Origin: a virus
IMG/VR virus record: IMGVR_UViG_3300046787_000103
Location: 1 to 31,831 of that record
Reading direction: 5' to 3' (one strand)
DNA: 31,831 nucleotides
Part shown: positions 849 to 27,752 of the stretch, piece after piece
How positions within the stretch are numbered: the stretch's first letter is position 1
Layout of the letters: each line of letters starts with the position of its first letter
Notes under the pieces: generated by a model
What the model saw: the letters and a program-made list of their open reading frames with translations, nothing else
Databases searched by the model: none
What the model was told of the DNA's origin: nothing
Program-made: the position numbers and the translations under genes

Positions 849-855
849 GTATTTA
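849..855 (-). promoter_or_regulatory. Late-promoter-like TAAATAC element for the 203-aa gene
   Basis: On the minus strand TAAATAC ends 16 bases before the ATG at 832. It matches the core of the T4 late promoter (TATAAATA), which is recognised by the gp55 sigma factor. The gap between it and the start codon holds a purine-rich possible ribosome site. Activity is inferred from the match, the intergenic position and recurrence of the same core before other genes in the window. Confidence 0.5.
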
Positions 856-12900: not shown

Positions 12901-14187
12901 TTTCAAACCTGCATCAAATTCAATAATAGGACGAGTAGCACGTTGAAGTTGGTCGAGCTCTGGAACTTGACCTGCGGCTGTCGCTGTTGCTATTACAACA
13001 TCTTGATGGAACCAGCGATTATACCTAGACCATGGGTTTCTATCTGGACTAGACCTATTAATAACAATATAATCTTTATCTCTAGGAAACGAAGTTAGTG
13101 TGCTAAACGGAGCCTGGTCAAATGGTTCGTCATCAAACAATAGAGAAGTCTCTTGAGAATAAGAACTAATAATTTCAAGGTCGGCTTCTGCTACTAATTT
13201 TATAGCAGTACCAACTCCTTCAACATACCAGTACCCGGCAGCATACTCTTCAGGAGTGACCTTACCAGTAAATGTTAATTTCATGCCATTTGATAATGAC
13301 ACTCCGTTGCTAAGAGTATATGTCTTCTTGCCAACAATATCAGCATTTACATCTAAGAATGTATTTTCAGTAATGTCTTTTACTTCGAATACACCACCAG
13401 TATTTGCATCTGCTTCGCTAACATAGAATAATACATCAGGACAATTCTCTTGCACTGTAAAAGTAATAGTGCCTTCTTTAATGCCATTAGCACTTACTCC
13501 GTCAGTGTATCGTTCTAACTCTCCTGCAACTCTAATAGTTTTTATTGAGAATGGGTTATTTGGTGCAGTGATGGAAAAGTTATATGTTTGTCCTCTGTAC
13601 AATGTTATTACAGGGTTACGTGTTAGTCCGTCTGGGCTAAACACATATGCATAGTTGTCGCCTTCGTCTTCAATTGTAACAGTAAATGTACTATCAATTG
13701 CTTGCTGTTGTCCTGCTACTTCAATTGCAGAAGGTCCGTACGGCAACCAGTAGTACTGTTGAAAGTTAACAAACTTATCCCAATTAATATGCGGGTTCCA
13801 AGAATAAAATTCTTGTTTGTTTAGACGTTCGTGATTTAGAACATTGCCGCCGTTGGTGGAAATATGGTTAATATGATCAATGTAATCTTTATAGAAGCTG
13901 GTGTTACCCAAGTAGTCTTGAATAACTGCTGCTGGCTCTAATTGATAATTTTGTCGAGTTGTATCGGTGGCGGCAACAAATACATCAGTAGCCTTAACAG
14001 CTTTTGCATTTTTTCTACCAATAAAACCGGATACTTTTTTAACAGTTCCTGGTTGTGTTAACTGATCTAACGTTGCTGCTAGAAACTTTTTGTTACTGTC
14101 AGTTCTATAAAAGCGCGGCAACAAATCTGATGTTGTACGGCTTTCATTTTTTGACAGAGGCAATTTTGGTTCGTTTTGTGTAGGCAT
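970..14187 (-). CDS. Giant baseplate wedge/tail protein in the gp7 position (4405 aa)
   Basis: A single uninterrupted 4405-codon ORF, 41% of the window, begins at an ATG overlapping the gp6 stop (TAATG). In T4 the gene after gp6 is gp7 (1032 aa), so this is a positional counterpart more than four times longer. Visible parts: an N-terminal segment (about residues 20-160) with LLPRFYRT...FLAATLDQL and FYSWNPHINWDKFVNF; a Trp/Tyr-rich middle near 1195-1245 with FWRGVYRW and KPSWWEE; seven FG-GAP repeats at about 2177-2585; GxGYxxxP elements near 2990, 3350 and 3395; a conserved-looking stretch near 3210-3300 with EVKPYKTQVREY; and a C-terminal series of beta modules (about 3430-4390) of the form GVT..F.L...V.VDG....YT...I...P..G..I.V. 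No signal peptide or catalytic site was seen. The ORF and structural nature are certain; equivalence to gp7 is inferred from synteny. Confidence 0.9.
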   Translation of the reverse strand: MPTQNEPKLPLSKNESRTTSDLLPRFYRTDSNKKFLAATLDQLTQPGTVKKVSGFIGRKNAKAVKATDVFVAATDTTRQNYQLEPAAVIQDYLGNTSFYKDYIDHINHISTNGGNVLNHERLNKQEFYSWNPHINWDKFVNFQQYYWLPYGPSAIEVAGQQQAIDSTFTVTIEDEGDNYAYVFSPDGLTRNPVITLYRGQTYNFSITAPNNPFSIKTIRVAGELERYTDGVSANGIKEGTITFTVQENCPDVLFYVSEADANTGGVFEVKDITENTFLDVNADIVGKKTYTLSNGVSLSNGMKLTFTGKVTPEEYAAGYWYVEGVGTAIKLVAEADLEIISSYSQETSLLFDDEPFDQAPFSTLTSFPRDKDYIVINRSSPDRNPWSRYNRWFHQDVVIATATAAGQVPELDQLQRATRPIIEFDAGLKLFNFGHLSKKNVDVIDTFTTDVFSTIEGSLGYNVDGVDLADGMRVLFTADTDRFVNGKIFDVNFVSVTEQGRRLELLASTEVNDTSDLITFSTPHGLATGNQIIYLNNGNTSIDGLVNRQIYFVSVISTTSIKLYSDKTLNTLVDILSVGAGTHAFETFNGYRRQITLVESVDTTPITNETVLVKTGAVNQGSMYWYNGTTWQLGQKKETINQAPLFDIFDADGNSYGDNATYDGSTFTGTKLFSYKVGTGTADSALGFALSYQNISNIGDIVFEFNILSDSFAYKQVTSVLTKSTDVGYLRVISGIDTFSYENGWTASTLTNANPVVRIFKESNLVNNFPLDMYDFKDQLDDLVVNVFVNGRRQNKNTYSIVDGTVRKSVLLSADVTTADVVTLKCFSAQAKNNNGHYEIPLNLQNNPLNANLSQFTLGEVIDHVDIIVEHLTSFDGVYPGYSNLRDIGNITPLGTRFVQHSGPMNLSLYHLGSQTANVIKALDKARNDYGKFKRAFITLAADSGIDTDTKQHVDYILQELSKDKTKTQPYYLSDMFAYTGAVRNEYIVLDSRVKTYPLTTAFNLDTLSNQAVNIYLNGNQLLHGRDYVFGTDIFFEILVDLVNGDVIESYEYGTTDGSFCPASPSKLGLYPLFEPQIFVDNTYLEPTTVIQGHDGSITLAFDDYRDALILELEMRIFNNVKVKYDPQIFDIYNFIAGYSRPTAYTKNEIDQVMSQFFYQWTTNIAQDYTQQDTSLWDRLNSFTWNYRGNSLPDNTDSPAFWRGVYRWTLDTDRPHTHPWECLGYSIKPSWWEEVYGPAPYTSNNLILWDDIKNGQIRQPGVPIRTLEKFAKSILENGAPVDEDGNLISPYYAGHVNGYIKPTAEGYYTFGDVGPVESAWRRSSYYAFAVIQTALLLQPNTVLGTCLDRSRIIRNLNNQLVYAETGLRIRLADMVIPSTALSSSRIFTSGLINYIIDYITSDVTLLVTQYESDLANITNKISSKLGGFTSKQKFRLLLDSKSISSSGGVFVPEENYEIILNTSSPTKKLVYSGVVITKFADGYEIRGYNNDHPYFTYYPYTLTGRTINVGGISESYIVWEPDQYYAVGKLVKANGLYYRVTLSHQSGEKFDATNYAKLAELPVNGGRSAELRKAWDTNNEQVVNYGTKFSTIQSVVDFMQGYSAYLEAQGFVFDEFNTDLKTVNNWETSINEFLFWSTQNWSEGAVISLSPAANNLVFQSTDSVVNNIRDEFFEYKIFRVDGQKLPAEFTNSFRENNQFVLRPENTNHGIYGATLYLVQKEHVLLLDNTTLFNDVIYDQAPGYRQERIKVSGYISTNWNGGFNIPGFIYDQAVITAWAPWTDYNLGDTVKYKEFYYSANSFLPGTETFNTENWIKLDEKPTSQMLPNWDYKADQFTDFYSLDSDNFDAGQQKMAQHLIGYQKRQYLENIIQDDVSQYKFYQGMIIEKGTQNVFSKLFDVLSADDQESLTFNEEWAVRVGNYGASDSFAEIEFKLDESLFKLNPQPFELVSTIDTSLVDFVYRQTPADVYIAPVGYNNNVWPTSNSSEYLRTPGYVKYEDVALNLDTITDIVTHDISNLVEGDNIWCAFEGRDWNIYRFTTANITVENVEYTSNKLIITCDTIPTIAAGDVIGIENSESIKGFYVVTSVVGRKINIITTITGWQTPFTDLDQILLYQFIESRISNIDELNDHIPSTLKTNERVWADNDGSGLYAVYTNNQVFDQQSITNFDLGNNLNFGKQVAVSPNGQLVAVANSSTVVTVYAKGVSTNNWLPSFELAPSQTLIGTSDNFGAQIKFSSDGMWIAISAPNASDIDNSNLTNQGYVALYQKANETSYNFFQLLVSPIELSDQLFGSTIEFANTGSQYFLTVASPGYTDSTGIVHVFEYTSNAWTVYGTITAPESNKIFGYDIAMSAAGDILAISAPIETNDLEDTYPGAVYVYRRTSGTYTLVSTLDTSSVSGLTNRSNFGESVAISKPGNYLAVGAPFNDASYTDTGTVFVFSIDSTVDLHQTIVSNKHEAAEKFGYTVNFMNDDASLVIFSASGDIEQETTFNDGGVTTFDNNTLRIVDKQIDTGRIDIYDRYNTKFIFGESLNSVAPDTVETPALEVPSIVDLYGSSIAMSDDYIVVGAPNTYADGGYVYTYAREMGATSWEVDYREVSRPDVYKIKKAYIYDRTKNVLAAYIDVVDAAQGKIPGPADQEISYKTYFDPATYSVGNSSVNVDDGMNWSKQQVGTLWWDLTRAKFLDNRAGGIVYRSTTWNTLYETASIDIYEWVESKYLPSEWDNLSGTDRGDSIGISGTSRYGDTAYSIKKKYDAVAKNFQNTYYYWVKNPTIAPNATGRKLSAYNVSRLISDPTSEGYQCLALTGQNSFSLVNATNLISGTNFNLNVQYWTVDLAHIEANAHSQWKIISEHPNTIIPTELENKWIHSLIGKDNNDRVVPDIKLPFKQRYGIKFRPRQSMFINRVEALKQYIERVNSVLAVNLIVDDYDLSDLQTFNEAPTALSGVWDTTIDTNAELRFVGVATLVQAVLTPVITDGRITGVDIINPGRGYVNAPYVTISTTGKGAVVKTVINELGQVTGVNVISTGEGYQDSTTFTVRPFTVLVLSDSNTFDKWSTYQWNKDTLLWDRAKGQGYDVTKYWNYVNWYATGYTQFTKIDHLVDNTYQLALLDSTIGQIVKVKNIGSGGWVLLEKYNNLVTIDYTQNYKVVGRENGTIQFSSTLYNYETIGYDSILFDSTLYDDLASTELNIIINTIKNKILIDEFRVEYLKLFFASLRYALHEQTFIDWAFKTSFVKATHNVGSLKQKINYNSDNLANFEDYINEVKPYKTQVREYISSYTGMDNSQSSVTDFDLIPTINSKFEVTPISVTVNELGDIESSSTEITNYPWKHWYDHVGFTVQSINLIDGGSGYIANPVVRIEGGFGTGATAKAYIVNGKVNRIQLLNPGTGYLKAPTIVLDGGLSVDGVAARASVVIESEVVRANKISIKFDRITRSYYVTEHTSTETFLGTGSRLQFTLKFSPDATIGTSSITVDGLDVLKNEYTLTTKTSTTKGFTSYYGLITFDTAPASGSSVVVTYTKNFNHLSAADRINFYYNPESGQFGKDLAQLMTGIDYGGTSVTGLGFNVSGGWDSLPWFSESWDAFDAAFDDRIFSAAASQYVYDLDYAPAVGEEINVYVEGQRIDDPDFVSYPMPGKPFAVMTPIIGDGVTQVFTLPSTNLTIDENDKVIFRKSNSDGSFTPLANEYDTQLSGGAFTGSALTSATGIAPDDIILDGDGFVTPMTSAAPEEIVPGHISDAVAIKVYQLPTSGSAKIMFKNYIGDGVTDEFSLGQIPSNFAAIFVKTNEVILKQGTDYTVNWRDKTVTLTDIPANKSIISIISFGVASQALIDTNFFVSDASTLEYITNATWVDNLGSVVLVDGLAVNYELFRTTEAYEYPGKVGIRFAVPQPLDALITYMITVDENQSASIIKSEIIEVDGVTDTYTLTNVLGNAQPVANNVLVIQDGQVLRPSNTEYFTLADDILDYSLLRYKAEPYQIDPTNFKVYLDGVELTYGSDYVFNMTVVSIELRTLAYVEGALLSVVNFSDAEYTIDGDQITFATVPVTDIEVTSFYNHDVAEIERTSEFTNLTGSLVPGTYDYYRYEQLLGGSITLSKSVVVNDYVWVIKNNVMLTHSVDYYLDSDLVTVKLSAPLDTSDVLDVIVFGDNAVHTSYGFMQFKDMLNRMHYKRISKDKSTVLAQVLGQRDAEIVVVDGTVLSQPNPSLNLPGVIEINGERIEYFSKNGNVLGQLRRATLGTGAPVQHSVSSTVLDIGPTETIPYADRHIVETTVSNGVDTDINLNYVPKVYDPLSSQHHSDTVDIFVGGYRLKKVDYQLFDETNGYPYSPEGDSDMPAEFETDGTNYGTTEVPVGRITLTTPALENSKVVVVKKIGRGWEDPGMDLTNSNNDIANFIKNTQTVFGR
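6432..7659 (-). other. FG-GAP seven-bladed beta-propeller segment inside the giant protein
   Basis: Seven spaced copies of a (F/Y)G-x(4-5)-S..G....V..AP element can be read between about residues 2177 and 2585. They begin FGKQVAVSPNG, FGAQIKFSSDG, FGSTIEFANTG, FGYDIAMSAAG, FGESVAISKPG, FGYTVNFMNDD and YGSSIAMSDD. Several are followed by GxVxVY/F outer-strand motifs (GYVALY, GIVHVF, GAVYVY, GTVFVF, GYVYTY). This is the FG-GAP pattern of integrin-alpha-type propellers, and the count of seven matches a closed ring. Calcium-loop DxDxDG motifs were not seen. Confidence 0.8.
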
Positions 14188-17100
14188 TAGTTAGTTCCTG
14201 CGCTAGTTATTGTTTGTTGGCTAGTTGTTGTTGATGTTACTGTAATTGATCCAGAACTTCGAATCTTGCTTGCAGTAATTGCTGATATAATTTCAACGTC
14301 ATTAACTGTTGCACCGTTGATAAAAATTTGATCTTTTTCTGCACGAATTTCAAATAAACTACCAAACGATAACGTTGATTGCTTCGGTACAATTATGAAG
14401 TTCACAATGTTAGGAGCAAGTCTGTTCATTACATAGGTTAACAATTCACTGAAGAAGAAGTCGCCACCGAAGTCCCAATTCTCTAATGCAAAGAATTCGT
14501 TAACAGCGGATAGCACTTTTGATTTAACATCGTTATCACTAATTACTATTTCAGAATTCTTCACAATCTTAAACGTTGCTTGAACATCCGGGCTTGCTTT
14601 GTTTCCAAATAATACTTTGTATTTCACTGGATGATAAATGATTTCGTCTGATATCGATTTGATTTTATTTAAATCAGTTGACAGTAAGTTATATAAAAAG
14701 TCTGTGCTCGGCGGTAACGGTTCTGTAGTACGTGATCCGTCGATCCATTCTCTAAATGACTTATCGTAATCTTTAGTTAAAATAAACACATCAATTAAAT
14801 TTGTTAATCCCGGGTCAATCCTTGACTCGTAATCGGCGTTGTGTATGTATTGAAACTTAATATTCGATCGTCCTACAAATACTCTATAATCAAGACTAAC
14901 AACAAATCCCGCAGTATCAGAATACTTCTTAACTACGTTAGTATCAACAAAATAGTAATATTGATTATTAACACCGCTAATTGGTTGTGTATCTAAAATA
15001 ATTACAATATCGTTACTGTTATCAACCCAACGGTAATCTTCTTGTCCTTGGGCAATAACATATAGTTCCTGTACAACATACTGATCGCTAGTCGAAACAA
15101 TCTCATCAAATATAGATGGGTCGTCAACAATGCCATCGTCATCAGTGTCGCTAAATGTAACTTGTATCTTTTTAGTGTCAACATATCCGTCAAGACCTCG
15201 ATACTCTTCTGATACTTCCCAGTCACGATCATATGTAAACGGACTAGTTCCGCCGAGGCTCGATAAATCTGTGTTAATACCTAACACTTTAATTTTATCC
15301 TTCACTACAGTGTTTGATCTAGTATCATAAATTTTATCACTTGCATCAAAGAAGAATCGAATCTGCTGATCACTTTCAAATATAAAACGCAACAGTCTAG
15401 ATTTCACTGTATAAAATTCCGAGTCTGTGGTGAACAAAATTAACCAACTTGCATCTAACTGTTGATTGCTAATGTCGCCTTGCTTACCCGTACTAAAATT
15501 ACTTGCAGTATCTAAGTTAACCTCAAATACAATCTTCCAGGTGCGAGATTCGATATCATAGCGGAGACCAAATGGTTTGTTTGAGAATACTAAATCTACC
15601 ATTGTACTAACAGTGTTAGTGTCAATTGTTGTTCTCCATGCTGGAATTAATCTGTCAATGATTGCACCAGTTGGGATTATGTCGTTTAAAATGATAGTTC
15701 CTGAACCGTCAGTTAATGTTCCTGTACCATTGTTTGATCCGTCACCGTTTACTGACACGACTTTACACCATAATGATGTAGTAGCATTAGCAACAGTGGC
15801 CGATCCCGTGACTAATTCATTGCTATTAGCTTTGTTAAAATATTGACCTGCTGGTGCAACAAACTTAACTAGTGCGCCAGGAGTTAAGAAACGTAAAATA
15901 GTACTAGTGTACGAACCAACCTTAAACGGAACATAAGATTCATTTGCTACAAAACCTGTGCTTTGATTAACGTCGGTAGTTGCTCTATACCAGAAAATAT
16001 TATCTGTTGCAACTGCTATAAATTTAGAATAGTAGTAATCTCGTAATTGTTGAGACTTGAGTGTTTCAAGCAATTCATTGTATAATACTGCTTCAATGTC
16101 TGTACGGGTAGTGTAGTTAAATCTAAAACTATCAGTATATTCTTCTTTGTATAATGCGCCGTCGTCTGCAAACAGATTTGTTTTGGAATATTTGCCTGTT
16201 GGGTCTACTAGGTCAAAATAACGACTAATTCCGCTACTAGAACGATTAACTGCTTTCACTTTAACAACTTGTTGATTGATACCTAGCGGACTAATGTTAT
16301 AGTCCTCGCCTGTAATCATTCTATTTTGTGTATAATAAGTTGCAGGAGCATTTGCTTTGATGCTAGAATTTGATTCTGTTTCAGCAGCATTTGCTACAGA
16401 ACTTTGTAAATTCATAGTCACAGATAACGTTTCAATTTGATTTAAGTTTGAAACATATGGGATTTCGATAGCAATATTTCTGATATCTTTAGGATTAATC
16501 GTGTAGCTGATACCATTACTTTGTCTATAGTATGCACGGAACGTACCTAATGGTAAGTTACCAAATGTGCCATCGCTAAAAGATAAACTAACTTTGTCAT
16601 CTGCACGAGTTACAACACTGTAGATGTTTCTAATAGATTTCTTTAAACTATTATAGATAGTGTTGTTACCTTCAAGTGCAGGAATTTTTGCCCAGTATTC
16701 TGATTCTAGTCCTTGTGTATCTAACTTGTATAACCATACGTCGTCATTGTTAATATTTGTAGCATCAATGTCTACTGTTTCATTAGTCGATGGTTGATCA
16801 ATAGTGAACGTACCTTGATTCAAGATACCTTGACGGAAATGAATGAAGAAGCCTGTGTTAGCACTACCGTTACCTCTGCCGTCATTACGATAGACAAATG
16901 CTAGTCTATTACCAATTGCAGGAGGCTCTTCATAAATGTACGTTTGATCTTTAAATGTAGTACTAACTACTTCAAATGGTAAAACACGGCCGTCAACTGC
17001 CTTAGTAAATGCATACACTGGTACATCAGTATTGCTTGCTTGAAAGCGATATTGTTCTGTTGGAATTCCGTAAATATCGTTCTTATCGTCCGGGTTTCCG

Positions 17101-17609
17101 AACTGACGATTAACTGGCAATGCTGCGTTAATTACTTTGATGAATTGATCGTACCAGTTAGCATTACTCGGATCATTCCAACTAATAACTTGTCCTGATA
17201 AATTTCTACCGTTAGAATCGTAAACGTTTTGACTTGTAGAAACTGTAGTGAATTTTAATAAACCGCTGCCTGCGATATTTCTCTTAGGGTTATAGCTTAA
17301 TAAACGTGCAAGACGTAAAACACTTTCACGACGCTCAGCTAACTCTAAGAAGTTATCTCTAGCATTTAAATCAATACGGAAAGCAATACTTTGTCCTAAG
17401 AAGGCAATAAGATCAATCAGGGCAAGGTATTCACTAGATTCGATGTAGTCGTTAAAATCTTCAGGGTAATTTTCCCTGATGTAATTAACCATGACTCTGC
17501 GAAGATTTTCAAAATCGTAGCTCTGGAAATCTGCACTGCGGAAGCTTTGATATATACGCTTCCAATCTTCCGCTACTAGTAATCTATTTTGTCTATCAGT
17601 TGTTGACAT
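14187..17609 (-). CDS. 6: Baseplate wedge subunit gp6
   Basis: gp6 forms the ring-linking dimers of the T4 baseplate wedge. The 1140-residue product opens with MSTTDRQNRLL and has the gp6/gpJ-type N-terminal block: YIRENYPEDFNDYIESSE, LIDLIAFLGQ, RIDLNARDNFLELAERRESV and LARLLSYNP (about residues 40-110). A central FSDGTFGNLPLGTFRAYY segment near residue 340 is also characteristic. T4 gp6 is 660 aa, so this is a long marine-type version. The ATG at 17609 was chosen over an in-frame TTG four codons upstream because GGGAAAG lies just before it. It lies between gp25 and the giant gp7-position gene, as in T4, and its stop overlaps the next ATG. Confidence 0.92.
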   Translation of the reverse strand: MSTTDRQNRLLVAEDWKRIYQSFRSADFQSYDFENLRRVMVNYIRENYPEDFNDYIESSEYLALIDLIAFLGQSIAFRIDLNARDNFLELAERRESVLRLARLLSYNPKRNIAGSGLLKFTTVSTSQNVYDSNGRNLSGQVISWNDPSNANWYDQFIKVINAALPVNRQFGNPDDKNDIYGIPTEQYRFQASNTDVPVYAFTKAVDGRVLPFEVVSTTFKDQTYIYEEPPAIGNRLAFVYRNDGRGNGSANTGFFIHFRQGILNQGTFTIDQPSTNETVDIDATNINNDDVWLYKLDTQGLESEYWAKIPALEGNNTIYNSLKKSIRNIYSVVTRADDKVSLSFSDGTFGNLPLGTFRAYYRQSNGISYTINPKDIRNIAIEIPYVSNLNQIETLSVTMNLQSSVANAAETESNSSIKANAPATYYTQNRMITGEDYNISPLGINQQVVKVKAVNRSSSGISRYFDLVDPTGKYSKTNLFADDGALYKEEYTDSFRFNYTTRTDIEAVLYNELLETLKSQQLRDYYYSKFIAVATDNIFWYRATTDVNQSTGFVANESYVPFKVGSYTSTILRFLTPGALVKFVAPAGQYFNKANSNELVTGSATVANATTSLWCKVVSVNGDGSNNGTGTLTDGSGTIILNDIIPTGAIIDRLIPAWRTTIDTNTVSTMVDLVFSNKPFGLRYDIESRTWKIVFEVNLDTASNFSTGKQGDISNQQLDASWLILFTTDSEFYTVKSRLLRFIFESDQQIRFFFDASDKIYDTRSNTVVKDKIKVLGINTDLSSLGGTSPFTYDRDWEVSEEYRGLDGYVDTKKIQVTFSDTDDDGIVDDPSIFDEIVSTSDQYVVQELYVIAQGQEDYRWVDNSNDIVIILDTQPISGVNNQYYYFVDTNVVKKYSDTAGFVVSLDYRVFVGRSNIKFQYIHNADYESRIDPGLTNLIDVFILTKDYDKSFREWIDGSRTTEPLPPSTDFLYNLLSTDLNKIKSISDEIIYHPVKYKVLFGNKASPDVQATFKIVKNSEIVISDNDVKSKVLSAVNEFFALENWDFGGDFFFSELLTYVMNRLAPNIVNFIIVPKQSTLSFGSLFEIRAEKDQIFINGATVNDVEIISAITASKIRSSGSITVTSTTTSQQTITSAGTN

Positions 17610-17628
17610 ACGCTTTCCCAATTATTGA

Positions 17629-17635
17629 GTATTTA
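17629..17635 (-). promoter_or_regulatory. Late-promoter-like TAAATAC element before gp6
   Basis: GCTAAATAC on the minus strand, 19 bases before the chosen gp6 ATG, in the 52-base gap after gp25. It shares the T4 late core and is preceded by AATATACGC; a TATACGC string also occurs on the minus strand upstream of the 203-aa gene. It would give an internal late start within the baseplate operon. Confidence 0.45.
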
Positions 17636-17661
17636 GCGTATATTATTATGTGTGTACTTAA

Positions 17662-18105
17662 TTACATTCCTGACAAACCGTTAGCTTTGTCAAATTTTAA
17701 CTGTATAGATTCTTGGATGTTGTATGGGTAATACACCAGTGTACATTCTATTTGCAAGCCTGTATCATACGGTGTTACTGTTATTTGTTCTGCACGAGTT
17801 CTAGGATCATAGTTGATGATTGTTTCAACATCTTTTATAACCATATCTCGAATTTGATCAGTTAGAGGTTCAAAAATAACGTCCCAGATAATTGTACCAA
17901 AGTCTGGCTGTTCTAATCGCTCGCCTAGTCGAATATGAAAATGATTTAACAAGTCTTGCTTGATTAGATTTAAATCATATAGCGCAAAACTATCAGTTGA
18001 CGCTGCTATCGTACTGAAACCTTTGTACGTTTTAGTACCCGGAATTACTTGTCCTTGTACGCTGCCCTGTAAGACAATTTTATCATATAATCTAGATGTA
18101 GCCAT
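17662..18105 (-). CDS. 25: Baseplate wedge subunit gp25
   Basis: 147 residues, close to T4 gp25 (132 aa). gp25-family proteins (GPW_gp25) are the most conserved wedge component of contractile systems and contact the sheath-initiating end of the tube. Visible family features are the ALYDLNLIKQDLLNHFHIRLGERL helix region split around residues 43-66, FGTIIWDVIFEPLTDQI at about 70-86 and a conserved NYDPR near residue 98. The ATG at 18103-18105 lies nine bases after the gp5 stop and only four bases after a TAAATAC string whose TAA is that stop, with no clear Shine-Dalgarno sequence. Order gp5, gp25, gp6 supports the call. Confidence 0.92.
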   Translation of the reverse strand: MATSRLYDKIVLQGSVQGQVIPGTKTYKGFSTIAASTDSFALYDLNLIKQDLLNHFHIRLGERLEQPDFGTIIWDVIFEPLTDQIRDMVIKDVETIINYDPRTRAEQITVTPYDTGLQIECTLVYYPYNIQESIQLKFDKANGLSGM

Positions 18106-18109
18106 AGTA

Positions 18110-18116
18110 GTATTTA
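18110..18116 (-). promoter_or_regulatory. TAAATAC string overlapping the gp5 stop, next to the gp25 start
   Basis: Minus-strand TAAATAC whose TAA is the gp5 stop codon, followed by TACT and the gp25 ATG. It matches the late core, but a start site six or so bases downstream would fall in or after the ATG, so it would give a leaderless message or be non-functional. Recorded because nearly the same string precedes the gene at 27753. Confidence 0.25.
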
Positions 18117-19541
18117 CTCGTCAGAGCCTTGAATTTTACTGAACGTATCAGTAGCTGTTGTGTATTTTTTAAATGCAGCCGGTTCTGCTAACGTTGGAGT
18201 TTCAACTGCTTCTGTCTTGTCCGGAGTGTGGCTTAACGGATCTAAATTCTCGTGTCCTGCCCATGGCTCATGCATCGGAATACGGCCGGCTTTTGGTGCA
18301 TTAGCAGCTTCAGCAGCAGCTGGTCCGTTCATATGAATTTGTGCGGCAGTTTCTAAATGATTGCCGCCGGCCTTAATACTACTTGTTCCGCCCACTGTTA
18401 ATTTTCCGTCTGCACCGGCCTTAATTTCGTAATTAGTAGTTGCAGTAGCATTAAAATTAGCGGCAGCATTTAAATTTATATTCCTACCTGCTGTGAGATT
18501 TATATCTCGATCAGCGGTAAAATTTATATCATTCTTTGTATGTACGCTAATACTATCTTCTGCATAGATATCAATTTTTCCGTTGCTAGTTAATTCAATC
18601 CATGCAGTACCCTTAGCATTGCCAATATAGATTAAATCTTCACTGTTGTGCAGCAGTATTTGATGCCCTGTACGAGTTCTTAGACGAATCAACTCGTTGT
18701 GTAGGATGTCTTTTTGTCCGCCGGACTCGCCTTGTTCAATTGCAGCATATACTGGAGGACCTTCGCTAGCATGTGTCTTACGTAAAAACTTGTCGTCGCC
18801 GTCGTCCATGACAAATGACGATCCCCCTAATCTACTAACAAACGCATTAGGAATCTGGTGTTCGTACTTTCCAACTTTTCCAACTTTTCCACTTTTATCC
18901 ACCGGGCCCGGTGTGCTAATTCCAAATACCATACTCGGAACTTCGCGACGAGCACTAGATGTTGTAATACCCCGTATGTCATCTTTTAGCAGGCCTTGCT
19001 GTTCAAGAGCTTTTGCAAAAGGATGTTCTGGTTTTAATTTTTTAGTAGTGTCACTTTGATTCTCTGGATGGATAATCTTGTTGTACTCACTAGTGGGTAC
19101 TCGAGTGTTGCTTGCACTTGTCTGTCTACTATCATTAACTACATATTCAGTTGCTGCATATCCTGGTAGTGAGAAATTCATATCTTCGTTTTGAACACAC
19201 CCGATCCAGAATCCCTTACGAGTATCGCCGCCGATAAAAATAACAACTACTAGTGCGCCAACATCTGGAGGTACCATCCACATGCCATATGCCTTTTGTG
19301 TGTTATCGTGAGTATCTTGACTATCTGAGACATAATCAATGTGTGTAGAACCGTAGAACGGATTTAAGTATTTTACAGTTCTTAACTGGCCTTCTCTTGC
19401 TTCATCATTACCTGCTTCGTGTAACAACTGCACTTCTAATGTTCCCATATAACTCGGGTCAAGGTGGCTTACAATTTTAGCTAAAAAGGGGCCGGCATCC
19501 GGTTCTGCAGAGTTTGCACCGGATCTAATTTCTTCTGGCAT
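18114..19541 (-). CDS. 5: Baseplate hub/tail spike gp5, without lysozyme domain
   Basis: 475 residues. Residues about 15-150 form an OB-fold-like N-terminal domain of the gp5/VgrG type (GPFLAKIVSHLDP, MGTLEVQLL, MWMVPPDVGALVVVIF, GFWIGCVQ). Around residues 325-410 is a run of short beta-helix repeats (KNDINFTADRDINLTAGRNI pattern, then KLTVGG and QIHMNGPAA), which in T4 builds the trimeric spike needle. T4 gp5 (575 aa) carries a glycosidase domain between these; here the linker has no lysozyme-like catalytic block. The C-terminal tail contains MHEPWAGHENLDP, a marine-type ending. The gene lies three bases after the hub gene and eight before gp25. Role: membrane-piercing spike on the hub. Confidence 0.88.
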   Translation of the reverse strand: MPEEIRSGANSAEPDAGPFLAKIVSHLDPSYMGTLEVQLLHEAGNDEAREGQLRTVKYLNPFYGSTHIDYVSDSQDTHDNTQKAYGMWMVPPDVGALVVVIFIGGDTRKGFWIGCVQNEDMNFSLPGYAATEYVVNDSRQTSASNTRVPTSEYNKIIHPENQSDTTKKLKPEHPFAKALEQQGLLKDDIRGITTSSARREVPSMVFGISTPGPVDKSGKVGKVGKYEHQIPNAFVSRLGGSSFVMDDGDDKFLRKTHASEGPPVYAAIEQGESGGQKDILHNELIRLRTRTGHQILLHNSEDLIYIGNAKGTAWIELTSNGKIDIYAEDSISVHTKNDINFTADRDINLTAGRNINLNAAANFNATATTNYEIKAGADGKLTVGGTSSIKAGGNHLETAAQIHMNGPAAAEAANAPKAGRIPMHEPWAGHENLDPLSHTPDKTEAVETPTLAEPAAFKKYTTATDTFSKIQGSDE

Positions 19542-19544
19542 ATC

Positions 19545-21722
19545 TTATGCGCCTCCTATTGCGCTATCGTTCGGCATCGGCTGTTTCACTGGATAGTTAC
19601 CAGGAACTTTGCTGTCTTGGCCTTGTATTCTAATTAGCCCTAGAGTTTGTGTAAACTTGCCCTTAGTGAACTCGCTAGTTACTTCTTGGGCCCTAAATAA
19701 ACCAGAAAATTGTTTTACAATTGATGTATTCCCAAAATCGTAGAATCCAGTATCAGTATTAGCATCGTCTGGAGTTCTAAAATTTACTCTAACCATAACT
19801 TGGCCTTTTTGCCAATCGATGGAACCTTCTTCATTAATTCCATTTCCAGCCGACGGTATTGTAAAATTGCCTGCACCACTATCTCCAATGAAGTACGGAT
19901 CTCCGAGTATTTTCAATGTTAAGTTTTGCATATCGTAACCAGTAGTTGCTAGATCATGAAACTGCCTTGCTGCGGTAGTCGCAGCATCGTCTGGTCCAGA
20001 TGCGCCACCGTGTTTAGCAGTGCGGGTAGATGCAGCATCCCTACGTAATGCTTCTGGGCCAACACCGCCTGCTGGCTGGCTTTGAGGTTGTGCTGCACCG
20101 CTTGCTGCCGGATATGCGCTACTGTTAGCTGCTGCTAATTCTTTGTCTTCAGAATTCTTGCCGCCATCTGCTAACATTTGTTTAAAAAATCCTAACTTGT
20201 ATTCAATTTGAAAATCAAGTATATCGTGGTTTTGCCCAGTGTATATGTAATTAAATTCTCGCTTCGGCACTACTAAATCTACTTTCGATTTAGTGTTAGG
20301 CGGTAAGAAAATAGACGAATCAACTTGGTAAGGTACGACTCTAAAAATTACCTTTTTAGCTTTCTGTCCAGTCTTAGGATCTTCTGAAGAAATGTTGTGT
20401 AAGTGGGTTTCTACTCGCCACCAAACAACTTTGCCGTCGGGCGTTTGGTTTGCTTCTTCAAGTGCCTTTCTTCCGTAATCACTTGTCATGATTACCTGAT
20501 TTATAATATCTTGCACTTTTGCGCCTTGCGCAAATTTAAAATCTGCATTTTTAGTATCAATAGTAATGTCGCCGCGTTTATAGATACCAGTCGCAGGATC
20601 ATATGTTGCATTATCTTTTGAGAACGGTGCACCAGCTTTGTTATACACTCCAAGACCTAAGTCTGCTAAACCAATAGCATTGCCGTTTTCGTTAGATGTA
20701 TACGGCGCAGGAGGGAATACAATATCAATCTCATGTGCATAAGTAACGTTCTTCTTTCGATCCTTATCGTCTTTTAACTTTTTGTTTATAACTTCTTTTA
20801 AACTTTTTTCGCCTTTTGATAATAAGTCAGCAACAGTGTATGGACCATTCTTGTTACAAGCAATGCTCACATCAGTCTTAATTTCTGCAAAACTATCTGA
20901 CTGGCCTTGTTCACTCCACGGGTATGCTTCAATATCATATGTTGCGCCCTTGGCTGTAACTTTCATTTCAACTGTACGAATTTTAATATGGAAATATTTT
21001 GTAGTCTGCGGGATAGTTTGTAAAATCTGATCGGCATTGAAGTGCCCTTTGAATTCTAGCTGGAGCATATAAGGAGCATCTGCATAGTTTGCATGTCCTG
21101 CAAGCAACGCTGCTGTTTGCAATGTTTCCCAAAACTTGCCCATACTATATGGTTCTATAACTCTAAAACTTATATTTGATGAGTTCGAATTACCAGCTTG
21201 TTGATCTAATCCAATAACTCCGGACAATCTAACGTTATCAATGAATGTAGTATAACCCACTGTTGGGCCTGTTGGCATTTGAATTACTGTAGCGCCAACT
21301 GCGCCACGGGCTCCACTGTTTACTTCTTCGTCAGCAAGTGCATACAACCCAAACATATAAGTGTATGATGCATATTTGTGTAAGGGATTACCTTCTGTTG
21401 TGCCCGAGGTGTTTCCAGCAATATCAGCTCCGCTAAACAAACCTGCAATTGTACCTACAGCTTTTGCAATGCCGTTAACTCCTGCTACTATTCCGTTAAC
21501 TCCTGCTGCAATACCGTTAGCTGCATTAGCTACGCCTGCAAGGCTTCCTGCAACACCAGTTCCAACATTTGTTAACCCGTTAAGAGCAGAGCTTTTAATT
21601 GCAGCAGCGGACTGAGTTATTGCTGCAACGCTAGACGTTGCTTGGTTAACTCCACCAACAACAGTGTTTACTTTTACAGTTGCAGTTGTTGCTGCTCTAG
21701 AAACATTATCAAGATATCCCAT
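19545..21722 (-). CDS. Baseplate hub protein, gp27-like (tentative; 725 aa)
   Basis: 725 residues directly upstream of gp5, the place for the hub partner of the spike. Residues about 10-95 are an Ala/Gly/Val-rich low-complexity region with a repeated AAGVNGI unit. The folded part starts with NPLHKYASYTYMFGLYAL (about 112-130), followed by FIDNVRLSGVIGL, FRVIEPYSMG and YMLQLEFKGHF. An NPL..Y.SYTY opening is one I associate with hub-type structural proteins of marine and jumbo myoviruses. A Ser/Ala/Gln-rich linker near residues 530-585 separates a C-terminal domain. T4 gp27 is only 391 aa and I see no clear residue-level match, so assignment rests on position and style. A good AGGAAC ribosome site precedes the ATG. 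Confidence 0.65.
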   Translation of the reverse strand: MGYLDNVSRAATTATVKVNTVVGGVNQATSSVAAITQSAAAIKSSALNGLTNVGTGVAGSLAGVANAANGIAAGVNGIVAGVNGIAKAVGTIAGLFSGADIAGNTSGTTEGNPLHKYASYTYMFGLYALADEEVNSGARGAVGATVIQMPTGPTVGYTTFIDNVRLSGVIGLDQQAGNSNSSNISFRVIEPYSMGKFWETLQTAALLAGHANYADAPYMLQLEFKGHFNADQILQTIPQTTKYFHIKIRTVEMKVTAKGATYDIEAYPWSEQGQSDSFAEIKTDVSIACNKNGPYTVADLLSKGEKSLKEVINKKLKDDKDRKKNVTYAHEIDIVFPPAPYTSNENGNAIGLADLGLGVYNKAGAPFSKDNATYDPATGIYKRGDITIDTKNADFKFAQGAKVQDIINQVIMTSDYGRKALEEANQTPDGKVVWWRVETHLHNISSEDPKTGQKAKKVIFRVVPYQVDSSIFLPPNTKSKVDLVVPKREFNYIYTGQNHDILDFQIEYKLGFFKQMLADGGKNSEDKELAAANSSAYPAASGAAQPQSQPAGGVGPEALRRDAASTRTAKHGGASGPDDAATTAARQFHDLATTGYDMQNLTLKILGDPYFIGDSGAGNFTIPSAGNGINEEGSIDWQKGQVMVRVNFRTPDDANTDTGFYDFGNTSIVKQFSGLFRAQEVTSEFTKGKFTQTLGLIRIQGQDSKVPGNYPVKQPMPNDSAIGGA

Positions 21723-21723
21723 G

Positions 21724-22023
21724 TTACGTTCCTAATAATTTTGTTAAATTATTTCCCTTTGGAATATAAATTTGTACGCCTGGCACAAAATCGTATATAG
21801 GATCTTGCAAGACGTCTAAATTTCGTTGTGTAAATACCCACCAAAGTTTTGCATTTTTATACAAGTCAAACGCCAACAAGTCTGGTCTATGAGTGTACTG
21901 TGCTTCTATAGTATAGAGAAAATCGTCAGGCTCTGCCGGCACTGGTCTAATGTTTAAAAAACTTAGATAGTTATCAACTATCGCAGTGTCCTTCCACGGA
22001 CTGCTATTCTTATATTGTGCCAT
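21724..22023 (-). CDS. 53: Baseplate wedge gp53-like (LysM-like, 99 aa)
   Basis: 99 residues containing YTIEAQYTHRPDLLAFDLY, then KLWWVFTQRN, DPIYDFVPG and IYIPKGNNL. The DLLAxxLY..xxLWWVF..RN...DPI.D...G..I.IP pattern is that of the gp53 wedge family, resembling a LysM fold. T4 gp53 is about twice as long, so this is a compact form holding essentially the conserved domain. Its ATG overlaps the upstream gene's TAA by one base and its stop is one base from the hub start, so all three are probably translationally coupled. In T4, gp53 joins the inner wedges to the hub. Confidence 0.82.
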   Translation of the reverse strand: MAQYKNSSPWKDTAIVDNYLSFLNIRPVPAEPDDFLYTIEAQYTHRPDLLAFDLYKNAKLWWVFTQRNLDVLQDPIYDFVPGVQIYIPKGNNLTKLLGT

Positions 22024-22844
22024 TATACGAATCCTGCGGCGCCGCCGTTAACAAACGAGTATAGATTAAACGTTTTAATTTTTTCTCTGCTGTAAATTGG
22101 TTGTAGTGTTACGTTAATACTGCTCTTAATTGGTACATGACTTGCGCCAGCGGCAATATAATCAACGCCGTTTGGTAAGTCAATTGTGTAACTTTTTACA
22201 ATAACAGGAATATCATTAAACACACTATCGCCATAGGCATTGAATTTTAAAATAATTGGAGGATTGCCGTCTGGAAACATTTTTGTACTTGCTCTTAAAA
22301 AGTTTACAGCCTTAACCCATGCTTGGCCTTCTACCGAATCTGTTACATAAAATGGCGCACTTACTGAAATAGTTTCTGCTTTGCTGTGCTGGTATGCAAA
22401 AAATGAATAGTTACTATGAGTAATAGATTGTTCTTCATAACTTGCACCACCGCTTACGTTGATAGTCGGAGTAAATGGAAATACTAATGAGCCAATTGCT
22501 CCAGTTAATCGTGGGCGCCATTCACCACCACCGTTGCCGCCGAGTGCGCTGGCTAAGCCGCCAATAGCGCCCGCAAGATTACCGATAGTACCGAGCGCAT
22601 TAGTAAATAGTGCTGCGCCTGCTGTAAATTGGCTCATTGGATTTCCACCTGCAGGTAGGTTAAAACTCCTAAGTGCGGACACTGCACCAACTGCATTACC
22701 TACCTGCCCTAGGGCGCCAGAAATCCTACTAGCTGTTCCAGTAATATTGTTAAGTGTACCCATTGCTTGGGTAGCAGCCGAACCAACTGACGCAGCCGAC
22801 CCCGTGATTGTACGCAGTCCAGCGCCTATATCAAAATTTGCCAT
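22023..22844 (-). CDS. Baseplate-tail tube junction protein, gp48/gp54-like (tentative)
   Basis: First gene of the minus-strand baseplate operon, 273 residues, with a strong AAAGGAG ribosome site at 22851-22857. Residues 1-100 are Gly/Ala/Ser-rich (GSAASVGSAATQAMG, AGAIGGLASALGG). The folded part has LVFPFTPTINVSGGASYEEQ (about 119-138), THSNYSFFAYQHS, AWVKAVNFLRASTKMF and PPIILKFNAYGDSVFNDIPV, ending with a LQPIYSREKIKTFNL segment. This protein type sits next to gp53 in marine T4-like phages as I recall and is often treated as a tube-cap or tube-initiator (gp48/54) counterpart. Structural nature is firm; the specific T4 equivalence is not. Confidence 0.6.
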   Translation of the reverse strand: MANFDIGAGLRTITGSAASVGSAATQAMGTLNNITGTASRISGALGQVGNAVGAVSALRSFNLPAGGNPMSQFTAGAALFTNALGTIGNLAGAIGGLASALGGNGGGEWRPRLTGAIGSLVFPFTPTINVSGGASYEEQSITHSNYSFFAYQHSKAETISVSAPFYVTDSVEGQAWVKAVNFLRASTKMFPDGNPPIILKFNAYGDSVFNDIPVIVKSYTIDLPNGVDYIAAGASHVPIKSSINVTLQPIYSREKIKTFNLYSFVNGGAAGFV

Positions 22845-22850
22845 ATTGGA

Positions 22851-22870
22851 CTCCTTTGTTACTATATTTA
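22851..22870 (-). promoter_or_regulatory. Late-promoter-like element and strong RBS of the baseplate operon
   Basis: Minus strand: ACTAAATATA overlaps 22863-22872 and contains the late core TAAATA. It is followed by AAAGGAG (22851-22857) six bases before the ATG at 22844. This is the head of the long tail operon. The element abuts the -35 box of the divergent sigma-70 promoter. Confidence 0.6.
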
Positions 22871-22871
22871 G

Positions 22872-22900
22872 TTGACAAAATTAAGTACATAGTTTATAAT
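22872..22900 (+). promoter_or_regulatory. Perfect consensus sigma-70 promoter for gp55
   Basis: TTGACA at 22872-22877, a 17-base spacer, then TATAAT at 22895-22900: both hexamers and the spacing are exact consensus. The predicted start near 22907 gives a leader of about 13 bases containing AGGA (22911-22914) before the gp55 ATG at 22920. It would be read by unmodified host RNA polymerase early in infection. Confidence 0.88.
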
Positions 22901-22919
22901 AATACAAAATAGGACTACA

Positions 22920-23741
22920 ATGAAAGTTAACTACCTTAATAACAAAGATTTATTAGAAGAAATCCACAAAAGTAAAAATACGTTTTCTAGTTATACTAAG
23001 CCAGAATATCACCGATACGACCTTATATTACCCAGTGTTGATAAGATTAATATTCGAACTATTGCCGAAGCTAAACGTGCCCAAGCTAAACGATTAGGCC
23101 AAGAAGAGTACCAACGCAGAAAAGCATTAGGTGAAAAGGTTAAACAAGCAGATACAGAAGTCGATTACAAAAAAATTGCCAAAACTGATGTAGTCTTCCG
23201 GGTAATGACGTTTGATCATATTCCGCTTAACAATACTCGTAAAAAGAATCCGAAAACTCTTGCTGATCATCGTGACAAAGTAAACTTTCCCCCATTCCAA
23301 CACTGGAAGTTTGACGAAAACGATATCCTAGTCTGTGTTGGAAAAAGTCACTGGAAGGGCGATATAGAAAAAGGCAAGTTTAACAAAGACCACGGGCAGA
23401 TTACCAATACGCTAGCCCGTATGTACATTAAATTATGCGAGAGATACGCTACAAGAGGTAACGTTCGTGGATATACTTATAACGATGAAATGCGGGGCCA
23501 AGCTATACTTCAACTTACTCAAATTGGTCTTCAATTTGATGAAAGTAAGTCGGATAATCCTTTTGCTTATTTTACTGCCGCCGTTACTAACAGTTTTGTT
23601 AGAATCATCAACTTAGAAAAACGTAATCAAAATATACGTGATGACTTATTAGAAATTAACGGGATGAATCCTAGCTATTCAAGAACAGGGTCTGGTGAAC
23701 ATGCTGCTGCTGTCAAACGGTTCGACGAAACTACTGATTGA
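22920..23741 (+). CDS. 55: Late-transcription sigma factor gp55
   Basis: 273 residues. The opening MKVNYLNNKDLLEEIHKSK resembles the start of T4 gp55 (YNYVNNKELLQAI...). Residues about 150-255 carry the sigma region-2-like core: QITNTLARMYIKLCERYA, MRGQAILQLTQIGLQFDESK, NPFAYFTAAVTNSFVRIIN and LEKRNQNIRDDLLE. gp55 directs host RNA polymerase to TATAAATA late promoters, coupled to replication through the sliding clamp. T4 gp55 is 185 aa; the extra length here is mainly a Lys/Arg-rich region at about residues 30-150. The C-terminus (HAAAVKRFDETTD) lacks an obvious counterpart of the T4 hydrophobic clamp-binding tail (LDFLYE). The gene is led by a consensus host promoter and followed by gp47. 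Confidence 0.9.
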   Translation: MKVNYLNNKDLLEEIHKSKNTFSSYTKPEYHRYDLILPSVDKINIRTIAEAKRAQAKRLGQEEYQRRKALGEKVKQADTEVDYKKIAKTDVVFRVMTFDHIPLNNTRKKNPKTLADHRDKVNFPPFQHWKFDENDILVCVGKSHWKGDIEKGKFNKDHGQITNTLARMYIKLCERYATRGNVRGYTYNDEMRGQAILQLTQIGLQFDESKSDNPFAYFTAAVTNSFVRIINLEKRNQNIRDDLLEINGMNPSYSRTGSGEHAAAVKRFDETTD

Positions 23742-23766
23742 CCTGTAGGCTTAAAACAACTATACT
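23738..23766 (+). promoter_or_regulatory. Sigma-70 promoter for gp47/gp46
   Basis: TTGACC at 23738-23743 and TATACT at 23761-23766, spacer exactly 17 bases, each hexamer one mismatch from consensus. The -35 box overlaps the gp55 TGA stop. The distance from the -10 box to the start codon is 19 bases, identical to the gp55 promoter. This would allow gp47/46 to be read independently of gp55. Confidence 0.65.
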
Positions 23767-23774
23767 AGATCAAC

Positions 23775-23788
23775 GGAGACTAAATTTG
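23775..23788 (+). promoter_or_regulatory. RBS fixing a TTG start for gp47
   Basis: GGAG at 23775-23778, seven bases before TTG at 23786. The upstream in-frame TTG at 23738 is rejected because it lies at the gp55 stop, inside the promoter, has no ribosome site, and would add 16 residues ahead of the conserved FxDIHFG start of the enzyme. Confidence 0.7.
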
Positions 23789-24799
23789 AGTAATCTTTTT
23801 AAGAAAGCAGCTTGCTTCACAGACATACACTTTGGATTAAAATCAAACAGCCATGTTCACAATCAAGACTGTGAAGATTTTGTAGATTGGTACATTGCAA
23901 AAGCGAAAGAGGAGGAGTGTGATGTTGGAATTTTTCTCGGCGATTGGCACCATAACCGAAATAGTCTTAATATCACTACTATGGACTATAGCCTTAGGGC
24001 CTTGGAAAAGCTGGGTAAGGCGTTCGATCAATTTTATTTCTTTCCTGGTAATCACGATTTGTATTACAAAGATAAACGAGACATCCATTCCGTTGAATTC
24101 GGAAAATATATTCCCGGAATCACTGTTGTACATGAGCCTACCACTATTGGTAACGTTACTATGTGCCCGTGGCTCGTTGGAGACGAATGGAAAACTGTAG
24201 GAAGCAAAGGCGGCAAATATATCTTTGGCCATTTTGAACTACCTAACTTCTTCATGAACGCTATGGTACAGATGCCAGACCACGGTGAGATTCAACTCGA
24301 CAGTTTTCAATCTTATGAGTTAGGATTCAGCGGACACTTCCACAAACGTCAAAGTAAGGGTAATATGCACTACATCGGTAATGCATTTCCGCACAACTAT
24401 GCAGACAACTGGGACGATGATCGTGGGATGATGATATTAGAATGGGGCGGACAGCCCGAATATCATAGCTGGCCTCTTCAGCCAACATTCCGTACAGTAA
24501 AATTAAGTCAACTAATTGACGAAGCTGATACATTGATTAAGCCGAATCAACATCTCAGAGTTAGTCTAGACATTGATATTAGCTACGAAGAAGCTAGTTT
24601 CATCAAAGAAAAGTTTATGAGCGACTACGAGATTCGCGAACTAACACTTATTCCAGAAAAGAAAGAGATAGAAATCAATACAGACATTGATATCCAAGCA
24701 TTTGAGTCTGTGGATCAAATTGTTAGCAACCAACTTGTCAATATCGAAAGCGACACATTTGATAAAAAGATTCTGTTGGAGATTTACAACAGCCTATGA
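23786..24799 (+). CDS. 47: Recombination nuclease subunit gp47 (Mre11/SbcD type)
   Basis: 337 residues from the TTG start, matching T4 gp47 (339 aa). Metallophosphoesterase motifs appear in order: D13-I-H15 (CFTDIHFG), G52-D53 (FLGDWHHN), G88-N-H-D91 (FFPGNHD), GHFELP near residue 150 and SGHFHKR near 183. These bind two metal ions for 3'-5' exonuclease and endonuclease activity. gp47 works with the gp46 ATPase to resect DNA ends for recombination-dependent replication and to help degrade host DNA. The last four bases overlap the gp46 start (ATGA), so the subunits are translationally coupled. All catalytic motifs look intact. Confidence 0.95.
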   Translation: MSNLFKKAACFTDIHFGLKSNSHVHNQDCEDFVDWYIAKAKEEECDVGIFLGDWHHNRNSLNITTMDYSLRALEKLGKAFDQFYFFPGNHDLYYKDKRDIHSVEFGKYIPGITVVHEPTTIGNVTMCPWLVGDEWKTVGSKGGKYIFGHFELPNFFMNAMVQMPDHGEIQLDSFQSYELGFSGHFHKRQSKGNMHYIGNAFPHNYADNWDDDRGMMILEWGGQPEYHSWPLQPTFRTVKLSQLIDEADTLIKPNQHLRVSLDIDISYEEASFIKEKFMSDYEIRELTLIPEKKEIEINTDIDIQAFESVDQIVSNQLVNIESDTFDKKILLEIYNSL

Positions 24800-26574
24800 T
24801 TAAGATAAAAGATTTAACAGTTAAGAATTTTATGAGTGTGGGTAACCAGACTCAAGCAGTAGACTTTGGTCGTCAACAATTAACATTAGTACTAGGTGAA
24901 AACTTAGATCAAGGCGGGGACGACAGTGGTTCACGCAATGGTACAGGTAAAACTACTATTGTTAATGCGTTGAGCTTTGCATTGTTCGGTACTGCACTTA
25001 CTAGCATTAAGAAAGATAACTTAATCAATAAGATTAATAACAAGAACATGCTAGTCACTCTTACTTTTGAGAAGGACGGAAACAAATATAAAATCGAACG
25101 AGGTCGTAAACCGACAATCATGAAGTTTTATATTAACGATCAGGCCAAAGGCGAGTTAAATTCTGACGATAGTCAGGGTGACATGCGTGAAACGCAAAAG
25201 GATATCGACGAGTTGTTAGGTATGAGCCACGATATGTTTAAGCATATTGTAGCTCTTAACACATATACAGAACCGTTTCTGAGCTTGAAGGCAAATGAGC
25301 AACGAGAAATTATCGAACAACTGTTAGGTATTACTCTGCTTTCCGAGAAAGCTGATCTGCTAAAAGAGCAAATTCGTCTTACTAAAGAATCAATTGTTCA
25401 AGAGTCGGCTGATATCGAAGCTTCTAAAAAATCAAACGATAAGATTCGAGTCAGTATTTCAGGTTTAGAAACTAGACAAAGCGCATGGTATACTCAACGT
25501 AATGCAGATTGTGAAAAAATTGCTAAAAGTATTGCTGAACTACAAAGTGTTGACATTGACAATGAGTTAAATCAACATGCAAAATTAAAACAATACGATG
25601 AACACGCTGCAAAAATTAAAAGTTTAAACAAAGAAAAAGCAACATTAGAAACAGCAGTTATTCAAGCAGATAAGGCAGTAACCAAGTATACTAAAGAAGT
25701 AGAACAATTAAAAAATAAAACTTGTCCGGCTTGTGAACAAGGATTGCATAGTCATAAACACGAAGAAATGACCAGTCATGCTGAAAAGAATTTAGCAGAT
25801 GCACTAGTTTATTTGCAAGGTGTTAGTGATAGTTACGCAAGTGTCATTGAAGAACTTGATACTATCGGTGATATAAACGGTCGACCGAAAACATATTACG
25901 ATACTGTTGAAGAAGCACTAAAGCATCAAAACAACCTTACAAGTTTAGAAACTGCATTGAATAAGAGAGAAAACGAAGTTGATCCGTATCAAGAGCAGAT
26001 CGACGAATTGAAGCACACTGCAATTCAAGAAATCAATTGGGATAGTGTTAACGCACTAACTTCAATGAAGGACCATCAAGAATTCTTACTTAAATTGCTA
26101 ACAAACAAAGATAGTTTTATCCGTAAAAAGATCATAGATCAAAACCTTGCCTATCTGAATAACAGGCTTACGTACTATCTTGACAAAATGGGATTGCCGC
26201 ATCAAGTAAGTTTCTTAAATGACTTAAACGTCGAAATTACACAGTTAGGTCAAGATTTAGACTTTGATAACTTATCACGTGGCGAACGCAATCGTTTGAT
26301 CTTAGGGTTAAGCTGGAGCTTCCGTGATGTGTGGGAAAGTTTATACCAAAATATTAACTTGTTATTCATCGACGAACTTATTGATAATGGTTTAGATGCT
26401 AACGGTGTTGAGAATGCCTTAAGTGTTCTTAAGAAGATGGCACGTGAACGCAATAAGAACATTTATCTGATTAGTCACAAGGATGAATTAATCGGTCGTG
26501 TAAACAATGTACTAAAGGTTGTCAAAGAAAACGGATTTACCAGCTACTCGAACGATATCGAAATTACAGAATGA
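24796..26574 (+). CDS. 46: Recombination nuclease ATPase subunit gp46 (Rad50/SbcC type)
   Basis: 592 residues (T4 gp46 560). Walker A is GSRNGTGKTT at about 45-54, with a Gly/Asp-rich insertion before it (LGENLDQGGDD). A Q-loop region around 150-160 is followed by a long charged coiled coil, interrupted by the zinc hook C310-P-A-C313. The coil then returns to the ABC signature LSRGERNR near 494 and Walker B LLFIDELIDNG near 523-533, with a D-loop after it and SHKDE as the switch histidine. It forms the Mre11/Rad50-like complex with gp47. ATGA overlaps occur at both ends, with gp47 upstream and the small basic protein downstream. Confidence 0.95.
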   Translation: MIKIKDLTVKNFMSVGNQTQAVDFGRQQLTLVLGENLDQGGDDSGSRNGTGKTTIVNALSFALFGTALTSIKKDNLINKINNKNMLVTLTFEKDGNKYKIERGRKPTIMKFYINDQAKGELNSDDSQGDMRETQKDIDELLGMSHDMFKHIVALNTYTEPFLSLKANEQREIIEQLLGITLLSEKADLLKEQIRLTKESIVQESADIEASKKSNDKIRVSISGLETRQSAWYTQRNADCEKIAKSIAELQSVDIDNELNQHAKLKQYDEHAAKIKSLNKEKATLETAVIQADKAVTKYTKEVEQLKNKTCPACEQGLHSHKHEEMTSHAEKNLADALVYLQGVSDSYASVIEELDTIGDINGRPKTYYDTVEEALKHQNNLTSLETALNKRENEVDPYQEQIDELKHTAIQEINWDSVNALTSMKDHQEFLLKLLTNKDSFIRKKIIDQNLAYLNNRLTYYLDKMGLPHQVSFLNDLNVEITQLGQDLDFDNLSRGERNRLILGLSWSFRDVWESLYQNINLLFIDELIDNGLDANGVENALSVLKKMARERNKNIYLISHKDELIGRVNNVLKVVKENGFTSYSNDIEITE

Positions 26575-26846: not shown

Positions 26847-26849
26847 TTG

Positions 26850-27716: not shown

Positions 27717-27734
27717 GATGTACGCAAGTACATC
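27717..27734 (+). other. GCAA-tetraloop hairpin just upstream of the 367-aa gene
   Basis: GATGTAC, loop GCAA, GTACATC: seven perfect base pairs with a GNRA loop, 18 bases before the ATG at 27753. No T-run follows. It could cap the 3' end of the structured RNA as a processing or stability element, or shape the 5' leader of the next gene. Confidence 0.65.
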
Positions 27735-27739
27735 ATAAC

Positions 27740-27747: not shown

Positions 27748-27752
27748 CTACT

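Follow-up and report, generated by a model that had tools for sequence, protein, structure and literature searches.

Two promoters that point away from each other upstream of gene 55 raise the question of whether both can be used on one molecule, or whether one shuts out the other. The DNA analysed here (the window) is positions 1-31,831 (31,831 nt) of IMG/VR record IMGVR_UViG_3300046787_000103, a viral fragment whose kin are jumbo myoviruses such as PA5oct, MIJ3 and the RaK2-like phages. The gp55 gene and a leftward cluster of virion and baseplate genes are separated by an intergenic gap of ~75 bp. The features of the region are collected in Table 1.

Table 1. Position of promoter elements and genes in the window
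Feature	Position	Strand	Basis or remark
Late box TAAATA of ORF 221-832 (putative)	850..855	-	upstream element at 865-882
Remaining leftward cluster: baseplate wedge, virion protein, hub/lysozyme, wedge and gp6-like genes	14187..22023	-
Late box TAAATA of gp6-like gene (putative)	17630..17635	-	upstream element at 17645-17662
Virion structural protein gene, heading the leftward cluster	22023..22844	-	phrog_12050
gp55-type late box TAAATA (putative)	22865..22870	-	start predicted at ~22859 by T4 geometry (PMC2988020)
sigma70 -35 hexamer TTGACA, gene 55 promoter	22872..22877	+	TTGAC invariant in nearly all relatives
Upstream late-promoter element ATAAACTATGTACTTAAT (putative)	22880..22897	-	profile match, 9 nt from TAAATA
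sigma70 -10 hexamer TATAAT	22895..22900	+	pattern match, relatives; start predicted at ~22907
gp55-type late sigma factor gene	22920..23741	+	phrog_12791 E=1.5e-76; phrog_234 E=1.4e-24
SbcD-like nuclease subunit gene, downstream of gp55	23738..24799	+
SbcC-like nuclease subunit gene	24796..26574	+

Two divergent promoters upstream of gene 55

The initial annotation had placed a perfect sigma70 promoter before gp55, and this was found at 22872-22900 (+); the identity of the gene was supported by phrog and structure matches. The two consensus hexamers are separated by 17 nt, within the 16-18 nt expected of such promoters. No other perfect sigma70 promoter occurs in the window, while 0.08 per window would be expected from a first-order Markov model and the reversed-pattern control yielded none. 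These figures, together with conservation in the relatives, rule out a chance match.

On the opposite strand the late box forms part of the octamer ACTAAATA (22872-22865, -). This corresponds to the TATAAATA-like box that T4-type late promoters carry at the -10 position, its TAAATA is invariant in the relatives, and the phage encodes a sigma factor of the gp55 type. The lack of -35 conservation that is also typical of T4-type promoters was not seen, as a phased upstream element is present at the gp55 and gp6-like sites.

The best structural match of the gp55 model was T4 gp55 itself (7d7c_F, Z 10.6, rmsd 4.2 over 120 residues), and the structures matched are those of sigma region 2; the protein also resembles T4 gp55 of 7d7c in sequence. 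A region 4, the reader of a -35, was not evident among these matches, although an absent match proves nothing, and no hydrophobic clamp-binding motif was obvious at the gp55 C-terminus. No gp33-like domain, nor any other known one, was recognised in the N-terminus, where the sole significant match was the gp55-like family. Pfam searches for the sliding clamp gp45 gave no match, and nor did the control searches. For CBB, homologues of gp33 and gp45 were reported not to have been found (PMC5259590). Just past the SbcC-like region lies a SegE-like GIY-YIG endonuclease gene (26847-27275, +; PF19835, E=4.1e-33), which is possibly a homing endonuclease.

Conservation of the promoter block among close relatives

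Relatives were taken from IMG/VR as the best 80 by gp55 protein (70-96% identity). The testable set comprised 77 sequences with intact upstream DNA, the window and 76 relatives, some of which are closely related and do not represent 77 independent events. In 77/77 a sigma70-like -10 came after TATTTA-(0/1 nt)-TTGA[C/T], the gap in which was 1 nt in 74 and 0 nt in three. Over 67 distinct sequences TATTTA, TTGAC and the greater part of TATAAT reached ~2 bits of information per column; the columns of the sigma70 spacer mostly carried 1 to 2 bits, and the positions immediately flanking the block on either side <1 bit. The conserved block measures 36 bp and has sharp borders inside a diverged intergenic region; its distances to the start codons vary on both the left and the right side. 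At its sixth position the -35 has T in 70% of cases, most relatives reading TTGACT, and the perfect -35 consensus is therefore not the conserved feature. Conservation throughout the testable set argues that the layout is maintained, and the back-to-back geometry, promoter classes and gene identities given in the initial annotation are supported.

Among nine contigs, the back-to-back sites comprised the gp55 site and one clear further candidate, which lies away from gp55 in the 372-kb relative (contig G002 of L058). Near position 225713 (-) of that contig TATTTA abuts a perfect TTGACA...TATAAT; this is perhaps a coincidence, perhaps another superimposed site.

An upstream late-promoter element within the sigma70 spacer

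The complement of the sigma70 spacer was found to match an upstream element (~ATTAAnTACGCACATAAT, 9 nt before TAAATA) that had been learned from the gp6-like late promoter only. With a first profile trained solely on 28 gp6-like sites, the gp55 sites scored a mean of +13.5 bits, whereas TAAATA copies within ORFs averaged -21.7 (sd 9.8) and shuffled sequences -13.9 (sd 7.2). A further test added 73 gp6-like sites obtained by another search; in 65/65 distinct gp55 sites the best fit of the element lay exactly 9 nt from TAAATA, and the mean score of these sites was 15.1 (shuffles -10.9, sd 6.4). The minus-strand consensus at the gp55 block is ATAAACTACGCACTTAAT-N9-TAAATA, and the element falls within the sigma70 spacer and the beginning of the -10. 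If T4 geometry applies (TAAATA at -11 to -6, PMC2988020), it would span ~-38 to -21, with TACGCA at ~-32 to -27. The same arrangement of element and TAAATA is seen at the gp6-like gene (17635) and at ORF 221-832 (855); 18 of the 64 ORF 832 sites scored >=6, a value reached by 0.2% of shuffles.

As an element trained on gp6-like sites fits the spacer complement at a fixed 9 nt, the gp55 and late promoters look, from these alignments, to be superimposed on opposite strands, beyond mere adjacency. The initial annotation described the two elements as separated by a single base. This is correct for the hexamers, between which only base 22871 lies, but it understates the arrangement, in which the late promoter appears to span the whole sigma70 core.

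The conserved spacer is not a general trait of early promoters. The 372-kb relative has 29 perfect sigma70 sites (two control matches), most of them within 158-319 kb on a single strand, and their spacers are unrelated. Use by sigma70 alone consequently does not explain why the gene 55 spacer is conserved. Presence of the element in every late promoter was also ruled out, as few TAAATA sites with a downstream ATG scored >0, and so was a free-standing promoter, as without TAAATA the element showed no excess over the reversed control. Being absent from most TAAATA sites and showing no enrichment where TAAATA is missing, the element behaves, in these scans, as a phased part of a late-promoter subset.

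The element might instead be bound by some separate protein, or act as a second, tandem leftward promoter, phased with TAAATA by happenstance. This has a real claim to attention, if somewhat short of an even chance. Most late boxes have no such element, its TAAT half is -10-like, the gp55 model has no evident region 4 with which to read a -35, and T4 DsbA provides a precedent for a protein that binds at late promoters (PMC2988020). Happenstance fits less well with a spacing to TAAATA that stays at 9 nt (in some cases 8) across several genes unrelated to one another, or with the lack of excess of the element away from TAAATA.

Arrangement in cultured jumbo phages

In MIJ3, PA5oct, KP13-7, BF, GAP32 and SD-15_S21 the gp55 gene is divergent from the virion/baseplate cluster, and TAAATA is directed leftward in all. 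Judged by eye, the late box lies ~3-5 nt from the gp55 -35-like element in Alcyoneus-, Asterius-, Eneladus- and Mimasvirus, where this element reads TTGAAT, TGGGACA or TGGAACG. The arrangement is looser in Wroclawvirus (MIJ3, PA5oct), with ~23 nt between late box and -35 (also by eye), so close overlap is not essential everywhere. For CBB and GAP32, the published description predicts ATAAATA late promoters and places a TGAAACG-type promoter before gp55 (PMC5259590).

Tolerance of the 23-nt gap in Wroclawvirus is what would be expected if the overlap were compact packing: both promoters would be real, early transcription would be ended otherwise, and occlusion would have no role. The intergenic gap of the window is short, and the use of common bases would by itself fix how the two promoters are phased. 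Against this, the overlap was kept in all 77 sequences despite gp55 identities as low as 70%, and adjacency was kept in four other genera despite different -35-like elements. Packing of this kind is a possible explanation, though less likely than not.

Late boxes elsewhere in the window

The initial annotation assigned TAAATA to the baseplate operon. The box at 22870 does precede the virion/baseplate genes, but further candidates, likewise TAAATA (-) just upstream of late genes, are present at 18116, 17635 and 855. The window contains 20 copies of TAAATA, whereas 50.8 were expected from shuffles, a depletion of ~2.5-fold that affects both strands. This possibly reflects avoidance of stray late promoters, with a contribution from in-frame TAA stops.

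In the nine contigs, the distance from TAAATA to the ATG of long ORFs is bimodal, with classes at 10-11 nt and 22-30 nt, and control words gave no such peaks before ATG. Clustering of this kind, absent from the control words, speaks for TAAATA being a real promoter with a rigid start. The 10-11 nt class comprises 32 genes in the nine contigs, including those for tail tube proteins, and almost none has a Shine-Dalgarno motif; an example in the window is 18116-18103 (-). If T4 geometry holds, the late mRNAs of these genes would lack a leader, which would set them apart from the 22-30 nt class. The leaderless-type arrangement TAAATA-N5-ATG showed no excess over the reversed control in PA5oct, GAP32 and KP13-7.

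Several other observations were made on the late genes. The conserved start of the gp6-like ORF (14187-17621, -) is an ATG near 17609 (MSTTDRQNRLLV), 26 nt past TAAATA, and the TTG start listed for this ORF is probably wrong. At 29930-29895 (-) TGCGTA directly precedes the late box TATAAATA of a T4_baseplate-like gene and is conserved in several relatives; its complement, TACGCA, recalls the upstream element, though the position differs. A GCAA-tetraloop hairpin (GATGTAC-GCAA-GTACATC) followed by TAAATA is located at 27717-27752 (+), 5' of ORF 27753-28856, and many relatives have a similar structure, perhaps a terminator plus late promoter. A single ORF of 4405 aa occupies 970-14187 (-) in the structural cluster, and its only Pfam match is an FG-GAP repeat.

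A proposed switch between two sigma factors

We propose that host sigma70 polymerase would act early on TTGACA/TATAAT and transcribe gene 55 and the SbcD/SbcC-like genes rightward. After gp55 had built up, gp55-polymerase would bind the TAAATA late box, aided by the upstream element in the sigma70 spacer, and transcribe the virion/baseplate genes leftward. Late complexes would then block access to the gene 55 promoter, so that gene 55 would limit its own expression. On the sequence evidence we put the chances at about even that one 36-bp block holds two opposing promoters, used first by sigma70 and then by gp55, with occlusion between them.

In a sigma70 open complex the DNA from about -55 to +20 is occupied. 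With the predicted starts 48 bp apart, the footprints would, by geometry alone, clash, and simultaneous binding of two complexes to one molecule is not expected. Probably only one promoter is usable at a time, and this geometry is most readily taken to mean mutual exclusion, in which gp55-polymerase would switch gene 55 off. Two considerations weigh against a switch: bases common to both promoters would fix their phase whether or not their regulation is coupled, and other phage factors may shut off host sigma70 late, which would render occlusion redundant. The fuller proposal is that this jumbo-phage clade has late promoters of two parts, dependent on gp55 and including a -35-like element, and that gp55-polymerase directly represses gp55 synthesis from one of them as the tail genes start; on present evidence this is rather unlikely.

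It is improbable that the rightward promoter is a middle promoter whose conserved spacer is read by a phage activator: a TGAAACG-type promoter does precede gp55 in CBB, TGGAACG occurs in GAP32 and BF, and the gene 55 spacer is more conserved than early-promoter spacers, but the hexamers fit the sigma70 consensus and the element recurs at the gp6-like late promoter, where no rightward gene begins and the TATAAT columns are unconserved.

If the fuller proposal holds, the switch would be an autoregulatory one with two sigma factors and one site, the sigma70 promoter lying antisense over the late promoter, and would need no separate repressor. An upstream element placed over the early promoter of the late sigma gene itself would make it compact and self-timing. 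The locus would also allow study of what strengthens late promoters in phages that apparently lack the clamp-binding motif. The parts are ordinary; their superposition and the upstream element are unusual, and the element is the new part.

Comparison with known systems

In bacterial bidirectional promoters one DNA segment initiates transcription both ways, with one sigma factor and shared -10 bases; here there would be two sigma factors, and the predicted starts are ~48 bp apart. The classic example of a phage sigma factor confined to reading a -10 box is the T4 late system. The locus shares with it the gp55-type sigma and the TAAATA core (PMC2988020, PMC7892883), and ACTAAATA fits the Aeh1 variant of the late promoter, with (a/g)C at -13/-12 (PMC2988020). 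T4-type late promoters have been described without a conserved -35 region (PMC2988020, PMC7892883), and the present locus, where a phased element at ~-38 to -21 marks a subset of promoters, is therefore a variant rather than a plain T4-type late promoter. It also differs from T4 in that the gp55 C-terminus has no obvious hydrophobic clamp-binding motif and the late box overlaps the gene 55 promoter.

CBB and GAP32 resemble the window in their ATAAATA late promoters, in the late box near the gp55 promoter and, for GAP32, in the divergent order of gp55 and baseplate genes; they differ in that their gp55 lies behind a TGAAACG/TGGAACG-type promoter and not a sigma70 consensus. Neither an overlap nor an upstream late element is among the features reported in the available part of that work (PMC5259590). 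The A2b/A2c-A3 region of phi29 offers a functional parallel, as early and late promoters lie on opposite strands of one region and activation of the late promoter represses the early ones. In phi29 this depends on the regulators p4 and p6 (PMC3100819), whereas direct competition of two holoenzymes is proposed here.
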